Shown here one piece after another: positions 47,266 to 52,380 of a stretch of 64,000 nucleotides of DNA (positions within the stretch are counted from its first letter, which is position 1; each line of letters begins with the position of its first letter). The position numbers and the translations under genes were made by a program. Below the pieces are notes generated by a model, which made no database searches, was not told where the DNA came from, and saw only the letters and a program-made list of their open reading frames with translations. The DNA is from Fimbriimonadaceae bacterium (GTDB taxonomy: Bacteria > Armatimonadota > Fimbriimonadia > Fimbriimonadales > Fimbriimonadaceae): contig JAHCHO010000003.1 in assembly GCA_026129685.1 (NCBI GenBank), positions 124,001-188,000 on the forward strand, read 5' to 3'.

Positions 47266-48096
47266 ATGACGACGAACAATCTGAAGACGGGACTTCTTCT
47301 GATCGGCATCGCCGCCTTGGCGATCTTCATCGGGCGCCACTTCTTCGGCGCGGCGGGGGCGCTGTTGGGACTGCTGATCGCGTTCGCCTTCCAGGCGTTC
47401 AGCTACTTCCAGGGACACAAGATGGCGCTTCGCTTCGCGCACGCGGAACCGCTTCCGTCCGGAACCCTCCCGTGGCTGGAGGACGCGGTGACCCAACTGA
47501 GCGAACGCGCTGGCATTCCGGCTCCCGCCCTCTACATCTCGCCCGATCCTCAGCCGAACGCCTTCGCCGCCGGACGCAACCCGGACGTGGCGGTGGTCTG
47601 CTTCAACCAGGGTCTTCTGAACACGATGACCAAGCGCGAGGTCATCGCGGTTCTGGCGCACGAGATCGCCCATATCAGGAACCGCGACACCTTGACGATG
47701 ACGGTGGTGGCCGCCCTTGCCTCTTTCGTCACGATGCTTGCGAACGTGGCCTGGCTCATCCCTTCCCAAGGGGACGAGGACCGGAACCCGCTCGTGGACT
47801 TGGCGATGATGCTGGTCGTACCGGTCGCGGCGATGCTGGTCCAGTTGGCCATCAGCCGGGCACGCGAGTTCGCGGCGGACCAAACCGCGTCCGAACTGAT
47901 GGGAGACACCGCGCCGATGGCGGACGCTTTGCTGGCCCTTGAACGAGGGGTGCAGCGGACCCCGAGCCGGGCCGCCCAACCGGCGATGGCCCACCTCTAC
48001 ATCGCGAGTCCGCTCGCGGGAGGGCTGGGTTCCCTGCTCTCCACCCATCCCCCGATCTCGCAACGCATTGCGCGCTTGCGGGCGATCCGGGTGTAA
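47266..48096 (+). CDS. htpX: HtpX-type membrane zinc metalloprotease
   Basis: M48 protease that degrades damaged membrane proteins together with FtsH. 276 residues with two N-terminal membrane segments (LLLIGIAALAIFIGRHFF, LLGLLIAFAFQAFSYF), the zinc site HEIAH (in VLAHEIAHIRNRD), two later hydrophobic segments and the third ligand region SRAREFAADQTA. ATG at 47266 is chosen because the family N-terminus begins there. The DUF2791-type genes begin 51 bases downstream. Confidence 0.93.
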   Translation: MTTNNLKTGLLLIGIAALAIFIGRHFFGAAGALLGLLIAFAFQAFSYFQGHKMALRFAHAEPLPSGTLPWLEDAVTQLSERAGIPAPALYISPDPQPNAFAAGRNPDVAVVCFNQGLLNTMTKREVIAVLAHEIAHIRNRDTLTMTVVAALASFVTMLANVAWLIPSQGDEDRNPLVDLAMMLVVPVAAMLVQLAISRAREFAADQTASELMGDTAPMADALLALERGVQRTPSRAAQPAMAHLYIASPLAGGLGSLLSTHPPISQRIARLRAIRV

Positions 48097-48147: not shown

Positions 48148-49137
48148 ATGTCTTCCAACCTTGGGCCTTGGCTTAGCGTGGTACGAACGGAGTATCTCGA
48201 ATCCTTCGTGCGCGATGGCGGGGGTACCGTGCGTCTTCTCGGCGCCGGCACCGACGACCTCAAGGCCGCGTTCGGCCAGTTACGAAAGAGCGCGACCGAC
48301 CTCGGCTACCACGTGGTCAGCCTTCATCCGGGTCGTCTTCGAGAGGACGGTCGGAAGCCGCATCTCCACCGAATGGATCGTCTGACCACGACGGTACTCG
48401 GATCGCTGAGTTGGGGAGACTTGGTCGATGCCCAGGTCCGGATCGCCCTGCGCGAGATGGGCCTCGACGAAGCGCCCGGCGGCGCTGGATTCGACGTCGG
48501 AACGCTCGCGGCGCACAATGGGCGGGACCCGCAGGACCTTCGAAGGAGGTTCGAGCGCTTGGTCGCGGCCGTCGCCCTTTCCGACCGGAACTATTGCGTC
48601 GAGTTCCGATTGGCGATCGCCGCGCTCGTCCGGGCTCGCCTTCTCCCGTCGGAGGTATCGGCCACGACGGAGAGGGCGGTGCTCAACTGGTTCAAGGGCG
48701 TGCAGGAACCCGGGGCCGCCGCTCAGTTGCGCCGAATCGGCATCCACGACCGAATAGGCAGACTCAACGCCCGCTGGGTTCTGCAGTCCGTCACCCACTG
48801 GCTACCCAAAACGGGAAAGACCGGACTCGCCGTGTTCCTCGACCTCCGACCGTACGAGCGAACGCCTTCGAGCCAGAGCCGGTCGGGGGAGGACGGAGCG
48901 CTGCACTACTCTCGACCCTCCTACATCCAGATGCTCGAGTCGCTACGGCGATTCCTCGACGACGCGGAGGAGTTTCGCTCGTTCGTCCTGTTCGTCGGCG
49001 CCACGCCCGACTTCTTCGCGGAAGGACGTCGCAACTACCGCGATTACGACGCCCTCTACGGGCGAGTCGCGAACGAGATACACCCCTCCGGAAGGCCGAA
49101 TCCAGCGGCGGCCCTCACCGTCCTGCGGGCAGGATAA
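48148..49137 (+). CDS. DUF2791/BREX-ATPase-like protein without a working P-loop
   Basis: 329 residues. Overall pattern matches the P-loop ATPases annotated as BREX ATP-binding proteins: FVRDGGGTVRLLG leads into the P-loop position, RIGRLNARWVLQSVTHWL and FRSFVLFVGATPDFFAEGRR are family landmarks. But the P-loop position reads GAGTDDLKA with no GKS/GKT, and the Walker B position reads VFLDLRPYE without the DE pair. It is therefore a likely pseudo-ATPase. The partner gene starts six bases after its stop. Homology is judged by eye. Confidence 0.6.
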   Translation: MSSNLGPWLSVVRTEYLESFVRDGGGTVRLLGAGTDDLKAAFGQLRKSATDLGYHVVSLHPGRLREDGRKPHLHRMDRLTTTVLGSLSWGDLVDAQVRIALREMGLDEAPGGAGFDVGTLAAHNGRDPQDLRRRFERLVAAVALSDRNYCVEFRLAIAALVRARLLPSEVSATTERAVLNWFKGVQEPGAAAQLRRIGIHDRIGRLNARWVLQSVTHWLPKTGKTGLAVFLDLRPYERTPSSQSRSGEDGALHYSRPSYIQMLESLRRFLDDAEEFRSFVLFVGATPDFFAEGRRNYRDYDALYGRVANEIHPSGRPNPAAALTVLRAG

Positions 49138-49143
49138 CGAAAC

Positions 49144-50343
49144 ATGGAGACGATCGAAGCACGCAGAGTCATCGAAGCGCTGCGGACCGGCGTTCCAAGC
49201 CGCGCGGCCGTGAAGTCGCTCGGGGCGGGATCGGCGGCGCTGGAACGCGCCTTCGTCCGGGCCCTCGAAGCGAAGAGCGAAACGACGGGCGCGGAGCCGA
49301 TTCTTTTCCAGGGCCCGTTCGGAATGGGCAAATCCCACCTGCTGTTGCACTGGCGCTCCTTGGCGGAGGAACGCGGCTTCGCGACGTCCCAGGTCGTTAT
49401 CGGCCCCGAAACGCCGCTCGGCAACCCCAACGCCGTGCAACGCGCGGTCGCCGAAAGCGCGCGGGCACCGGGTACGACCGGTAAGGCCGTCAAGGAACTC
49501 GCCGCCGTTGCACCGCCGGGCGCCGCCGAGGCGTTGCGGGCGGGCGCGGCCAAGGCGGGCCTCGGCGATCGGTTCCTGGCGCTGCTCCGCGTCTACGAGA
49601 CGACCCAGGACGAGGAGTTGCGAAACGACGTGCTCAACGACCTCGAGGGGCGCCCGGTCGCGGTCGGCCGGGTTCGGCGCGCCCTGCGAGAAATCCGTGA
49701 AGCCGACCGCTACAAGTTCGCGGCCGGCTCGAGCCACGCTCACGCCCATGAGCGCCTCGTGCTCGCCGCGCTCTTCTGCCGCGCCCACGGGCTTCGGGGA
49801 CTGGTCGTCCTGTTCGACGAACTAGAGAGGCTGACCGCGTTCGGACCCCGGTCGCGGGTCGCGGCCTACCGGGAACTGGGCTGGTGGCGCAAGGTCTGCA
49901 ACGACCCCGCGATGCCGTTGTTCGCCGTCTTCGCGTCCGCCGACAACGCCCATCATCGCTTCACCGACAAGGGCGACACGGCCCGGGTGAAGGCGCTGAA
50001 GCCCGAGGACCCGGAAACCGAATCGGTCGTCCTGGGTCACGCACTTTTCGGGACGGTCCAAGACCTTGACCCCATCGTGGACGACGCGGCGCAACTGCAT
50101 GCCCTCCGCAAAACGGTCGCCGAGATCTATGGCGAAGCCTACGGGTTTGCCCCCAGCGACGGGGACCTAACCGACTCCTACCCCACGATCCGGGCGGCCC
50201 TGAGAAGTTGGATCGCGCGATGGGACATGGAACGCCTGGCCCCCGGGGAAACCGGGGCCATCGTCACCGAAACGTTGGAATTCGGAGCGACCACTTTCAG
50301 CGACGAGGAACTGGCCGCGATCGCGTCTGACGACGACGCCTGA
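49144..50343 (+). CDS. DUF2791/BREX-type ATPase
   Basis: 399 residues. Walker A is GPFGMGKS (57-64) and Walker B LVVLFDELERL (220-230), followed by a sensor-like FAVFASADN. The N-terminus (ARRVIEALRTGVPSRAAVKS) is typical of the DUF2791 family, which in BREX type 2-like systems is called BrxD and works with a helicase. Here no helicase, methylase or PglZ gene is near, and a hairpin ends the operon right behind it. Probably forms a complex with the pseudo-ATPase encoded just before it. Confidence 0.75.
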   Translation: METIEARRVIEALRTGVPSRAAVKSLGAGSAALERAFVRALEAKSETTGAEPILFQGPFGMGKSHLLLHWRSLAEERGFATSQVVIGPETPLGNPNAVQRAVAESARAPGTTGKAVKELAAVAPPGAAEALRAGAAKAGLGDRFLALLRVYETTQDEELRNDVLNDLEGRPVAVGRVRRALREIREADRYKFAAGSSHAHAHERLVLAALFCRAHGLRGLVVLFDELERLTAFGPRSRVAAYRELGWWRKVCNDPAMPLFAVFASADNAHHRFTDKGDTARVKALKPEDPETESVVLGHALFGTVQDLDPIVDDAAQLHALRKTVAEIYGEAYGFAPSDGDLTDSYPTIRAALRSWIARWDMERLAPGETGAIVTETLEFGATTFSDEELAAIASDDDA

Positions 50344-50374
50344 GTCCACGGCGGCGAATCGCCGCCGTGGACTC
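50342..50374. terminator. Strong hairpin terminator
   Basis: GAGTCCACGGCGGC and GCCGCCGTGGACTC form a perfect 14-bp stem with a 5-base loop between the convergent ATPase and ABC-transporter operons. A second small hairpin (CAGGC/GCCTG) follows at about 50377-50391. Confidence 0.7.
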
Positions 50375-50395: not shown

Positions 50396-51385
50396 TCAGT
50401 ACACCGAATCCGGGAAGTAGTAGTTCTTCGCGTTCTCCGGCGTGATGAGGTCCACATCGATCATCAGGTGGCGCGGCATGTACTTGCCCACCTTCTCTTT
50501 GTTTCGAAGGACCGCCGCCGCGAGTTCGACGCCCGTCGCGACCATCGAAGGTGGGTAGGTGATGTCCGCTGGGAACATCGGGTCCTTCTCCGAAACGCGC
50601 TTGACGATGTCCTTCATTCCCGCGCCGCCAAGAATCCAGACCCCCGTCCGGCCCGCTTCCTTGAGGGCCTGCTCCGCGCCCAGGGCCATATCGTCGTCCG
50701 CGGCCCAGATCGCGTCGAATTGCGGGTGCTTCACGAGGAGACTCTGGGTCACCTCAAAAGCCTTCTGCCGGTTCCACATGCCGGGCTGGCTGTCGAGCAC
50801 CTGGACGCCGCTGGCCTTGAACACCTCGTTCGCCGCATTGACCCGGTCGGTGTTGACGGTGGAGGGAATGCCCTCGAGGATCACGATCTTGCCCTTGCCG
50901 CCCAGTTTCTGAACGATGTACTCGGCGGACTTGCGGCCGAACGCCTTGTTGTCGCCTTCGATAAACACGTCGGCGACGGGCTCCAAGAATCCCCGGTCCA
51001 CGTTCACGAGGTAAATGCCACGCTTGTTCACCTCTTTCGCGATCGGGGTAAGGGGCGCGCTCTCCGTCGCGAGCACGACCAATCCGTCGATACCGCCCGC
51101 CATCATGGTCTCGATCTGGCTGATCTGGGTCTGGGGGGTGTCGGCGGCCTGCAGGTTCCACTCTATGTCGGGGTGCGCCTCCATGGCCTGGCGCGCCCAC
51201 CAGTTGACGCCCGCCGTCCAGCCGTGGTCCGCCGCCGGAATCGAGATGCCGATCTTGAGCTTCTTGCCCGTTCCGGCCGTCGCGCCGTCGCCGCCCGCGC
51301 TCGACGTACCGGAACCGCTCTGACACCCAAGGGCCATGACGAGAAACGCGCCGACGACCGACGCAAAGAGAAGCCGTTTCAACAT
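50396..51385 (-). CDS. Sugar ABC transporter substrate-binding lipoprotein
   Basis: 329 residues. Lipobox LVMALGC (Cys 21) and a Ser/Gly linker lead into a periplasmic-binding-protein type 1 fold (KIGISIPAADHGWTAGVNWW, AIWAADDDMALGAEQALKEA), as in ribose/xylose-type carriers. It is the last gene of a three-gene operon with the ATPase first. The ligand is probably a pentose or similar sugar; not determinable here. Confidence 0.9.
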   Translation of the reverse strand: MLKRLLFASVVGAFLVMALGCQSGSGTSSAGGDGATAGTGKKLKIGISIPAADHGWTAGVNWWARQAMEAHPDIEWNLQAADTPQTQISQIETMMAGGIDGLVVLATESAPLTPIAKEVNKRGIYLVNVDRGFLEPVADVFIEGDNKAFGRKSAEYIVQKLGGKGKIVILEGIPSTVNTDRVNAANEVFKASGVQVLDSQPGMWNRQKAFEVTQSLLVKHPQFDAIWAADDDMALGAEQALKEAGRTGVWILGGAGMKDIVKRVSEKDPMFPADITYPPSMVATGVELAAAVLRNKEKVGKYMPRHLMIDVDLITPENAKNYYFPDSVY

Positions 51386-51393
51386 GGGTCCAC

Positions 51394-52380
51394 CTAGTCC
51401 GTTGCCCGGCCGCGTTGAAGCAGCACGGCCAGCAGGATGATAGCACCCTTGACCGCGCCTTGCCAGTAGTTCGAAACCCCGAACGACACCATCATGTTCG
51501 AGATCACGCCGAGCAAGAGCACGCCGATCACGGTGCCCCACACGCGCCCTTTCCCCCCCGAAAGCGGGGTGCCGCCGATCACGACCGCGGCGATCGCGTC
51601 GAGCTCGTAGTACAGGCCGTTGGTGCTCGATGCCACCGAGTTCAGGCGGGCCGAAAGCAGAACGCCTGCCATCCCGCTGAGCGCCCCCAGCAGGGTGTAC
51701 GTCCAGAAGCGAATCGCCCCCGTCGAGATGCCCGAGTACCGTGCCGCCCGCTCGCTCGCCCCTACCGCGACGACGTACCGGCCGAAGCGCGCGCGCGCGA
51801 GCAGGAACGCCGCCCCGACCGCCAGGATCAGCCAGACGACGATGGACCAGTTGAGGATCAGGTTGCGTCCCGCCCCGTCCACGAACGGAAGCGGAATCCC
51901 GCCCGCCCCGAAGGCCGGGTAAGCGTCCATGCTCTGGCTCCGAATCTCACTGCCGTCCGCCATGACGAGGGTCACCGAGCGAAAGGCGACGAGTCCCGCC
52001 AGGGTCGCGATAAACGGCGCGAGACGTCCAACGCTGATCAGAAAGCCGTTCACCGCCCCCACCGCCGTCCCCACCCCGACGCCGGCGAGAACCGCGATCG
52101 CCACCCCCATCGTCCCCCGATCCAGGTTCTTGTTCAAGACCATCACCGCGCTCGCGCCGCTCAGGGCCACGATGCTGCCGACCGAGAGGTCGATCCCGCC
52201 CGCGATGATCACGAGGGTCATCCCGATCGCCACAATGCCGATGTAGGACGACTGGTTGAGGAGGTTCCGGACGTTCTCCGGCTGGAGGAACATCGCCGGC
52301 TTGAGAACCGCGTTGACAAGGACCAGGATCAGGAGCGCCAACACGACGCCGTACTGCTCGAAGATTCGTTGCGTTCGCAT
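51394..52380 (-). CDS. Sugar ABC transporter permease, RbsC-type
   Basis: 328 residues with about ten membrane segments. Landmarks of the ribose-type permeases are IAIGMTLVIIAGGIDLSVGS (as IVAIGMTLVIIAGGIDLSVG) and the cytoplasmic EAA-like loop GGTPLSGGKGRVWGT. It starts on the base after the ATPase stop codon. One permease gene means a homodimer in the complex. Confidence 0.93.
   Translation of the reverse strand: MRTQRIFEQYGVVLALLILVLVNAVLKPAMFLQPENVRNLLNQSSYIGIVAIGMTLVIIAGGIDLSVGSIVALSGASAVMVLNKNLDRGTMGVAIAVLAGVGVGTAVGAVNGFLISVGRLAPFIATLAGLVAFRSVTLVMADGSEIRSQSMDAYPAFGAGGIPLPFVDGAGRNLILNWSIVVWLILAVGAAFLLARARFGRYVVAVGASERAARYSGISTGAIRFWTYTLLGALSGMAGVLLSARLNSVASSTNGLYYELDAIAAVVIGGTPLSGGKGRVWGTVIGVLLLGVISNMMVSFGVSNYWQGAVKGAIILLAVLLQRGRATD

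Follow-up and report, generated by a model that had tools for sequence, protein, structure and literature searches.

An apparently orphaned pair of BrxD-like ATPase genes, one predicted to be catalytically dead, in a Fimbriimonadaceae genome and the five-gene helicase operon of its relatives

Two adjacent open reading frames that resemble the ATPases of BREX-type phage defense lie among the genes of a Fimbriimonadaceae bacterium, and the question that they raise is whether such a pair forms a module of its own, belongs to a known system, or is what is left of a larger one. The window analyzed here is a stretch of 64,000 nucleotides from a genome (G000) of 3.94 Mb in 18 contigs that is 99% complete. 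The two frames, termed B and C, were read from the window sequence and have the coordinates given to them in the first-pass annotation, which had been made from the sequence alone. They and the features around them are as follows.

47269..48096, plus strand: htpX-like gene upstream of the pair, in a neighborhood that is not conserved, and probably incidental
48148..49137, plus strand: B, 329 aa, putative pseudo-ATPase of the BrxD-like ORC/Cdc6 AAA+ class, with GAGTDDLKA at the Walker A position and FLDLRPYE in the Walker B region
49138..49143, plus strand: the six bases between the stop of B and the start of C, an operon-like spacing, read directly
49144..50343, plus strand: C, 399 aa, active-type BrxD-like ATPase by motif, with Walker A GPFGMGKS and Walker B VVLFDELE
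50342..50374, no strand assigned: perfect 15-bp inverted repeat 3' of C, with a 3-nt loop and without a T-run

The first-pass annotation had described two BREX-type ATPase frames six bases apart, and this is borne out by the gap itself and by the scores of both proteins against the Pfam family PF10923 (BrxC_BrxD; cut-off 22.2 bits), which are 58.1 bits (9.8e-16) for C and 38.1 bits (1.1e-9) for B, the latter over residues 133-313 only. Both scores lie above the cut-off and the pair is therefore not a chance occurrence; the possibility, raised at the outset, that the first protein has no similarity to the ATPase family is likewise set aside by the score of B. No other PF10923 proteins were found in the window genome. 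The Walker A and Walker B motifs previously assigned to C are both present. In B the P-loop position does read GAGTDDLKA, as had been claimed, and the claim that both Walker B acids are lost needs correction, as the first Asp is kept; Walker A and the catalytic Walker B Glu are both gone, leaving B without intact ATP-binding motifs. The hairpin reported after the pair is real and its stem is 15 bp rather than 14 bp, with arms at 50342-50356 and 50360-50374 and a stability (−44.1 kcal/mol, z −6.3) far above that of shuffled sequences. It sits between C and a convergent gene (50396-51541, minus strand), and was rejected as a canonical intrinsic terminator for want of a T-run. The htpX gene is indeed just upstream of the pair, with its stop at 48096, and together with a sugar ABC operon it makes up the direct neighbors of B-C, within surroundings of housekeeping genes that are not a defense island. 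A same-genus genome (G002) carries a 73%-identical htpX without B-C and with other neighbors, and the htpX neighborhood therefore looks incidental; htpX was rejected as a partner of B-C.

The survey of gene neighborhoods that the first-pass annotation had proposed gave a clear answer. Among 60 relatives C was found in two others only, both of the same order, and in both of these genomes B-C lies inside a five-gene operon, A-B-C-D-E, in which A is of ~260 aa, D is of ~175-190 aa and E is a SNF2 helicase. A profile survey of 291 genomes of the phylum found B in 22 (~20 of them convincing), with A in essentially the same set, the window genome excepted. The operon is conserved in Armatimonadota and several other lineages, with B-C as its middle, and A-B-C-D-E is contiguous in eleven Armatimonadota genomes, including two in which C is frameshifted (G038 and G151) and one in which E is cut by a contig end (G166). 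Other genomes of the phylum show variations on this order, with A-B-C-D running up to a contig end (G153), an insert between C and D (A-B-C-[insert]-D-E; G229 and G226), A-B-C-E (G247), and A-B-C without an adjacent helicase (G160, G204, G144 and G168). A scan of species genomes with the B profile added six more independent loci, of which three are on MAG contigs outside Armatimonadota and have the full A-B-C-D-E order (L023, L025 and L026) and three are proteobacterial, one with A-B-C-E (L028) and two with A-B-C (L027 and L029). The number of A-B-C loci without an adjoining helicase is thus six in all, and the helicase is therefore not strictly required in cis. That L028 and L029 were spurious matches to long antisense ORFs was considered and rejected, as profile searches showed real A-B-C genes. 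A single-query search of the species-genome contigs with the window C found no relative, whereas the B profile did find some.

B is always accompanied by C, in that every locus with a clear B also has C, whole or frameshifted. The pair is a conserved adjacent unit, and with A, D and E beside it in most relatives there is no support for the idea that it usually stands alone as a minimal module of two genes. The alternative offered at the same time, that B-C is the core of an undescribed system with distant partners, fits best in its first part and fails in its second, since in relatives the partners are adjacent to the pair. The window B and C are placed by the tree within the clade of this operon, which we refer to as class 1, and score 445 and 535 bits, respectively, against the class-1 profiles, in which the window itself is among the rows.

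Several loci deserve separate mention. The frameshifted copies of C, in otherwise complete operons (L008 9817-11074 in G038 and L081 3149-4499 in G151), could reflect assembly error, decay or switching. The insert between C and D in G229 (L095 11228-12265) encodes a 345-aa protein with no Pfam match, and that in G226 (L096 3410-4745) appears by eye to hold Phd/VapC-type and RelE-type toxin-antitoxin genes. A genome of the same order (G042; L022 8006-10337) has D-E alone, as a D-like protein and a SNF2 helicase without A-B-C. At another locus (L099 3385-7749, G245), a 275-aa ORF precedes a BrxD-like ATPase of 446 aa and then a helicase-like ORF of 727 aa, an arrangement that resembles a BrxD/Shango-type dyad.

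As to the other members of the operon, E is recognized by SNF2 models and has, in many copies, an Mrr nuclease domain at its C-terminus; its best defense models are ZorD and DpdE, and SngC is not among the best. Neither A nor D reaches a Pfam or NCBIfam cut-off or has a convincing PADLOC match. The A proteins of the relatives have no Pfam TerB match, and the AlphaFold2 model of A (pLDDT 94.4) gave fold matches to helical hairpins at the N-terminus only, while D has no PDB sequence match. Scans of viral contigs with the B, C and D profiles and of phage records with the window C and its class-2 counterpart (see below) found nothing, and no class-1 B turned up on plasmids; there is therefore no sign of phage carriage.

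A tandem pair of PF10923 genes on an Aulosira plasmid led to a sister operon, here called class 2, with the order A' (280 aa), B' (420 aa), C' (400 aa) and a BrxHI/SngC-like helicase (700 aa). The P-loop of B' reads GSWG[TA]GKT, and both class-2 ATPases are predicted from their motifs to be of the active type. The Aulosira copy of A' has no Pfam or PADLOC family match, and A and A' align poorly (hhalign, 6%). The four class-2 loci are as follows.

L129 3896-9290: sister operon, Aulosira plasmid AP018310.1
L130 6858-12284: sister operon, Desulfomonile plasmid NC_018026.1, with the helicase by annotation only
L102 1232-6693: sister operon, G144
L098 5545-10988: sister operon, G257

On the Aulosira plasmid the sister operon comes directly after a type-2 BREX PglZ-BrxD-BrxHI set, and on the Desulfomonile plasmid there are AbiE toxin-antitoxin genes near it.

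Class 2 also provides a view of the origin of B. The P-loop is broken in 25 of the 26 aligned B proteins, the exception being the most distant one (L097, G168), which keeps GSEGTGKTH and IDDIEE and scores 77 bits against PF10923. Aligned by hhalign with no shared rows, class-1 B matches the active-type B' at 98.8% (E 9.6e-17; an alignment with L097 on both sides gave E 7e-38), with GAGTDD opposite GSWGTGKT. C matches C' at 99.7% (E 3.3e-25) and B matches C at 91.8% (E 7.5e-7; the first, shallow alignments gave a weak 10%), with no match between B and C' (2.2%). The correspondence of B to B' and of C to C', with none between B and C', places the split between B and C before that of the two classes, and the loss of the ATP site of B in the class-1 branch. 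The motif loss and the profile match to B' agree with the initial view of the first protein as an inactive relative of the ATPase, and, judged by sequence, B is a genuine catalytically dead pseudo-ATPase descended from an active BrxD-like paralogue. Structure prediction had been suggested for both proteins, alone and as a complex, and for B on its own it points to an ORC/Cdc6-type fold. The AlphaFold2 model of the window B (pLDDT 88.5, pTM 0.88) was aligned best by VIA-align to ORC/Cdc6 proteins (Z up to 11.3 for Orc1, over 145 residues at 2.9 A), a likeness of fold that by itself shows no function, and was also aligned to BrxC (Z 9.3) and TnsC (Z 9.2); Foldseek alone was weak (best E 2.6e-3, none below 1e-3). 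Sequence profiles and structural alignments together thus predict that B has an ORC/Cdc6-type AAA+ fold.

How, then, does the family relate to systems already described? PglZ is a core gene of BREX. It (PF08665) gave no match in the window genome and one borderline match among the 22 carrier genomes, and is thus absent from 21 of the 22. Homologues of the pair do not lie in BREX loci; had they always been found in complete ones, this would have told against the first interpretation. No BrxHI helicase adjoins the window pair, and neither of the Shango partners, TerB-like SngA and the SngC helicase, is beside it. By these comparisons of gene content, the A-E operon is neither BREX nor Shango. 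In type-2 BREX, the ORC/Cdc6 ATPase BrxD forms a tight dyad with the helicase BrxHI and has been put forward as a helicase loader (PMC12839542), and the window family shares with this dyad a PF10923 ORC/Cdc6-type ATPase gene beside a superfamily-2 helicase gene. It differs in having two ATPase-fold subunits, one of them dead, in scoring far below the BrxD cut-off, and in having a SNF2 helicase with an optional Mrr nuclease and no PglZ, PglX or PglW. Shango, a tested anti-phage system, consists of SngABC (a TerB-like protein, an ATPase and a DEAD helicase; PMC10250203) and is likewise a small operon with a SngB-like ATPase and a helicase, whereas the A-E operon has no TerB match in A, two ATPase subunits, a SNF2 rather than a SngC-like helicase, and the extra gene D. 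Catalytically dead ORC-like AAA+ subunits next to an active ATPase are also known from BREX itself in the form of BrxB and BrxF, which are dead ORC/STAND subunits and proposed sensors (PMC12839542), but B falls in the BrxC/D profile, descends from an active BrxD-like paralogue and is not accompanied by PglZ. Operons that pair an active with an impaired copy of Orc/Cdc6 occur beside a KAP NTPase in mobile neighborhoods (PMC10853773); there the impaired copy has an intact Walker A and a broken Walker B, whereas the window B has lost Walker A and the partner in its relatives is a SNF2 helicase. The resemblance of E to Zorya ZorD and to DpdE, which extends to the fusion of Mrr nuclease to SNF2, comes without ZorAB motor or Dpd genes, and E is shorter and below the NCBIfam ZorD cut-off. 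PADLOC, Pfam and NCBIfam do not list the A-B-C-D-E operon, and a literature search that mostly left subscription papers outside its reach found no account of it, of DUF2791, or of BrxD with SNF2 and Mrr. The operon is hence apparently undescribed; what is new is the dead partner subunit and the gene set, and what is known is the theme of a BrxD-like ATPase with a helicase.

That the window pair is simply a degenerate BREX or Shango locus is very improbable. BrxD is the top defense model for both B and C, and BrxD and SngB are the best named models, but the scores against the BrxD equivalog NF033438 are 32.6 bits for B and 43.0 bits for C compared with a cut-off of 350 bits, PglZ is missing from the genome, relatives have A, D and a SNF2 helicase in place of the BREX or TerB/SngC partners, and the B-C duplication is common to a distinct sister operon. 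We also regard it as quite doubtful that B-C acts without a helicase as an ATPase switch that binds DNA and serves the cell, for example in repairing DNA or controlling replication, rather than defense. The pair stands alone in a housekeeping region and there are the six A-B-C loci with no adjoining helicase, both of which would suit such a switch, but its occurrence is patchy (3 of 113 genomes of the class and ~20 of 291 of the phylum), as is typical of accessory genes, the pairs of its relatives go with SNF2-Mrr or BrxHI-like helicases, and plasmids carry the sister operon beside BREX or AbiE genes.

In the window the pair is not in the same locus as A, D and E, profile searches did not find A or D anywhere in the genome, and E is represented by no family member, only by distant SNF2 proteins. 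The window genome alone has B-C while lacking A, D and an E of the family. The distant SNF2 genes are not supported as dedicated partners, as two same-genus genomes without B-C have similar SNF2 matches, though they may act in trans. A dead remnant, in which a transferred A-E operon lost A, D and E and left B-C to drift, is an unlikely explanation, though one that draws on several features of the window. C is missing from both of the same-genus genomes and from all 36 same-genus or family genomes sampled; the terminal branches are long (1.37 for C and 1.46 for B, compared with medians of 0.38 and 0.45); and near residue 240 the window B is missing an insert of ~40 residues that follows RPYE throughout its clade. 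Against this, the two reading frames run uninterrupted through 728 codons with a coding-like GC content by codon position, and B keeps 33 of 34 and C 45 of 48 of the positions that at least 90% of the other members conserve, within the range of full operons. An intact but orphaned pair therefore fits the window best, and B-C may act with a helicase from another locus, retain a lesser function by itself, or be a recently orphaned remnant.

We propose, as the reading that we consider somewhat probable, that B and C are the dead and active ATPase-fold subunits of an old heteromeric BrxD-like machine that loads or gates the helicase-nuclease of the A-E operon on foreign DNA. In such a machine C would bind ATP and assemble with B as a ring or dimer on DNA, and B would have a structural or sensing part, either completing the nucleotide interface or gating C. 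A would be the adaptor, and the complex of A with B-C would load or license D-E, the helicase-nuclease, on foreign DNA; that DNA would then be remodeled or cut. The analogy with helicase loaders follows from the top match of the C profile to PDB sequences, the primosomal helicase loader 2w58 (E 0.0045, followed by DnaA and BrxC-BrxB), and from the loader role proposed for BrxD. Pairs of the B-C type are recurrently coupled to superfamily-2 helicases, SNF2-Mrr in class 1 and BrxHI-like in class 2. PADLOC-type genes among 106 flanking proteins, counted without a background control, include CRISPR type I-C, DarT, HEC-07, SspH and a methyltransferase, and these defense-type flanks, the patchy occurrence, the Mrr nuclease, and the plasmid sister operons beside type-2 BREX or AbiE genes suggest a defense role for the A-E operon, which is probably anti-virus. 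Hetero-assembly, DNA loading and a role in defense are thus what we infer for B-C and the operon.

In both BREX type 2 and Shango a BrxD-like ATPase is paired with a helicase. Our fullest reading, which we offer tentatively and hold to be somewhat short of an even chance, is that A-E is an undescribed system against mobile elements in which an obligate dead/alive ORC/Cdc6 pair loads or gates SNF2-Mrr, that its BrxHI-like sister does so with two active subunits, and that the window retains a still functional minimal pair. The window is a reduced, orphan example of this family, whose recurrent five-gene operon is not listed in the defense catalogues searched. The sister operon with two active subunits, the operon with one dead subunit, and the orphan pair represent a matched natural set, which makes it testable which subunit must hydrolyze ATP and what purpose the dead one serves.
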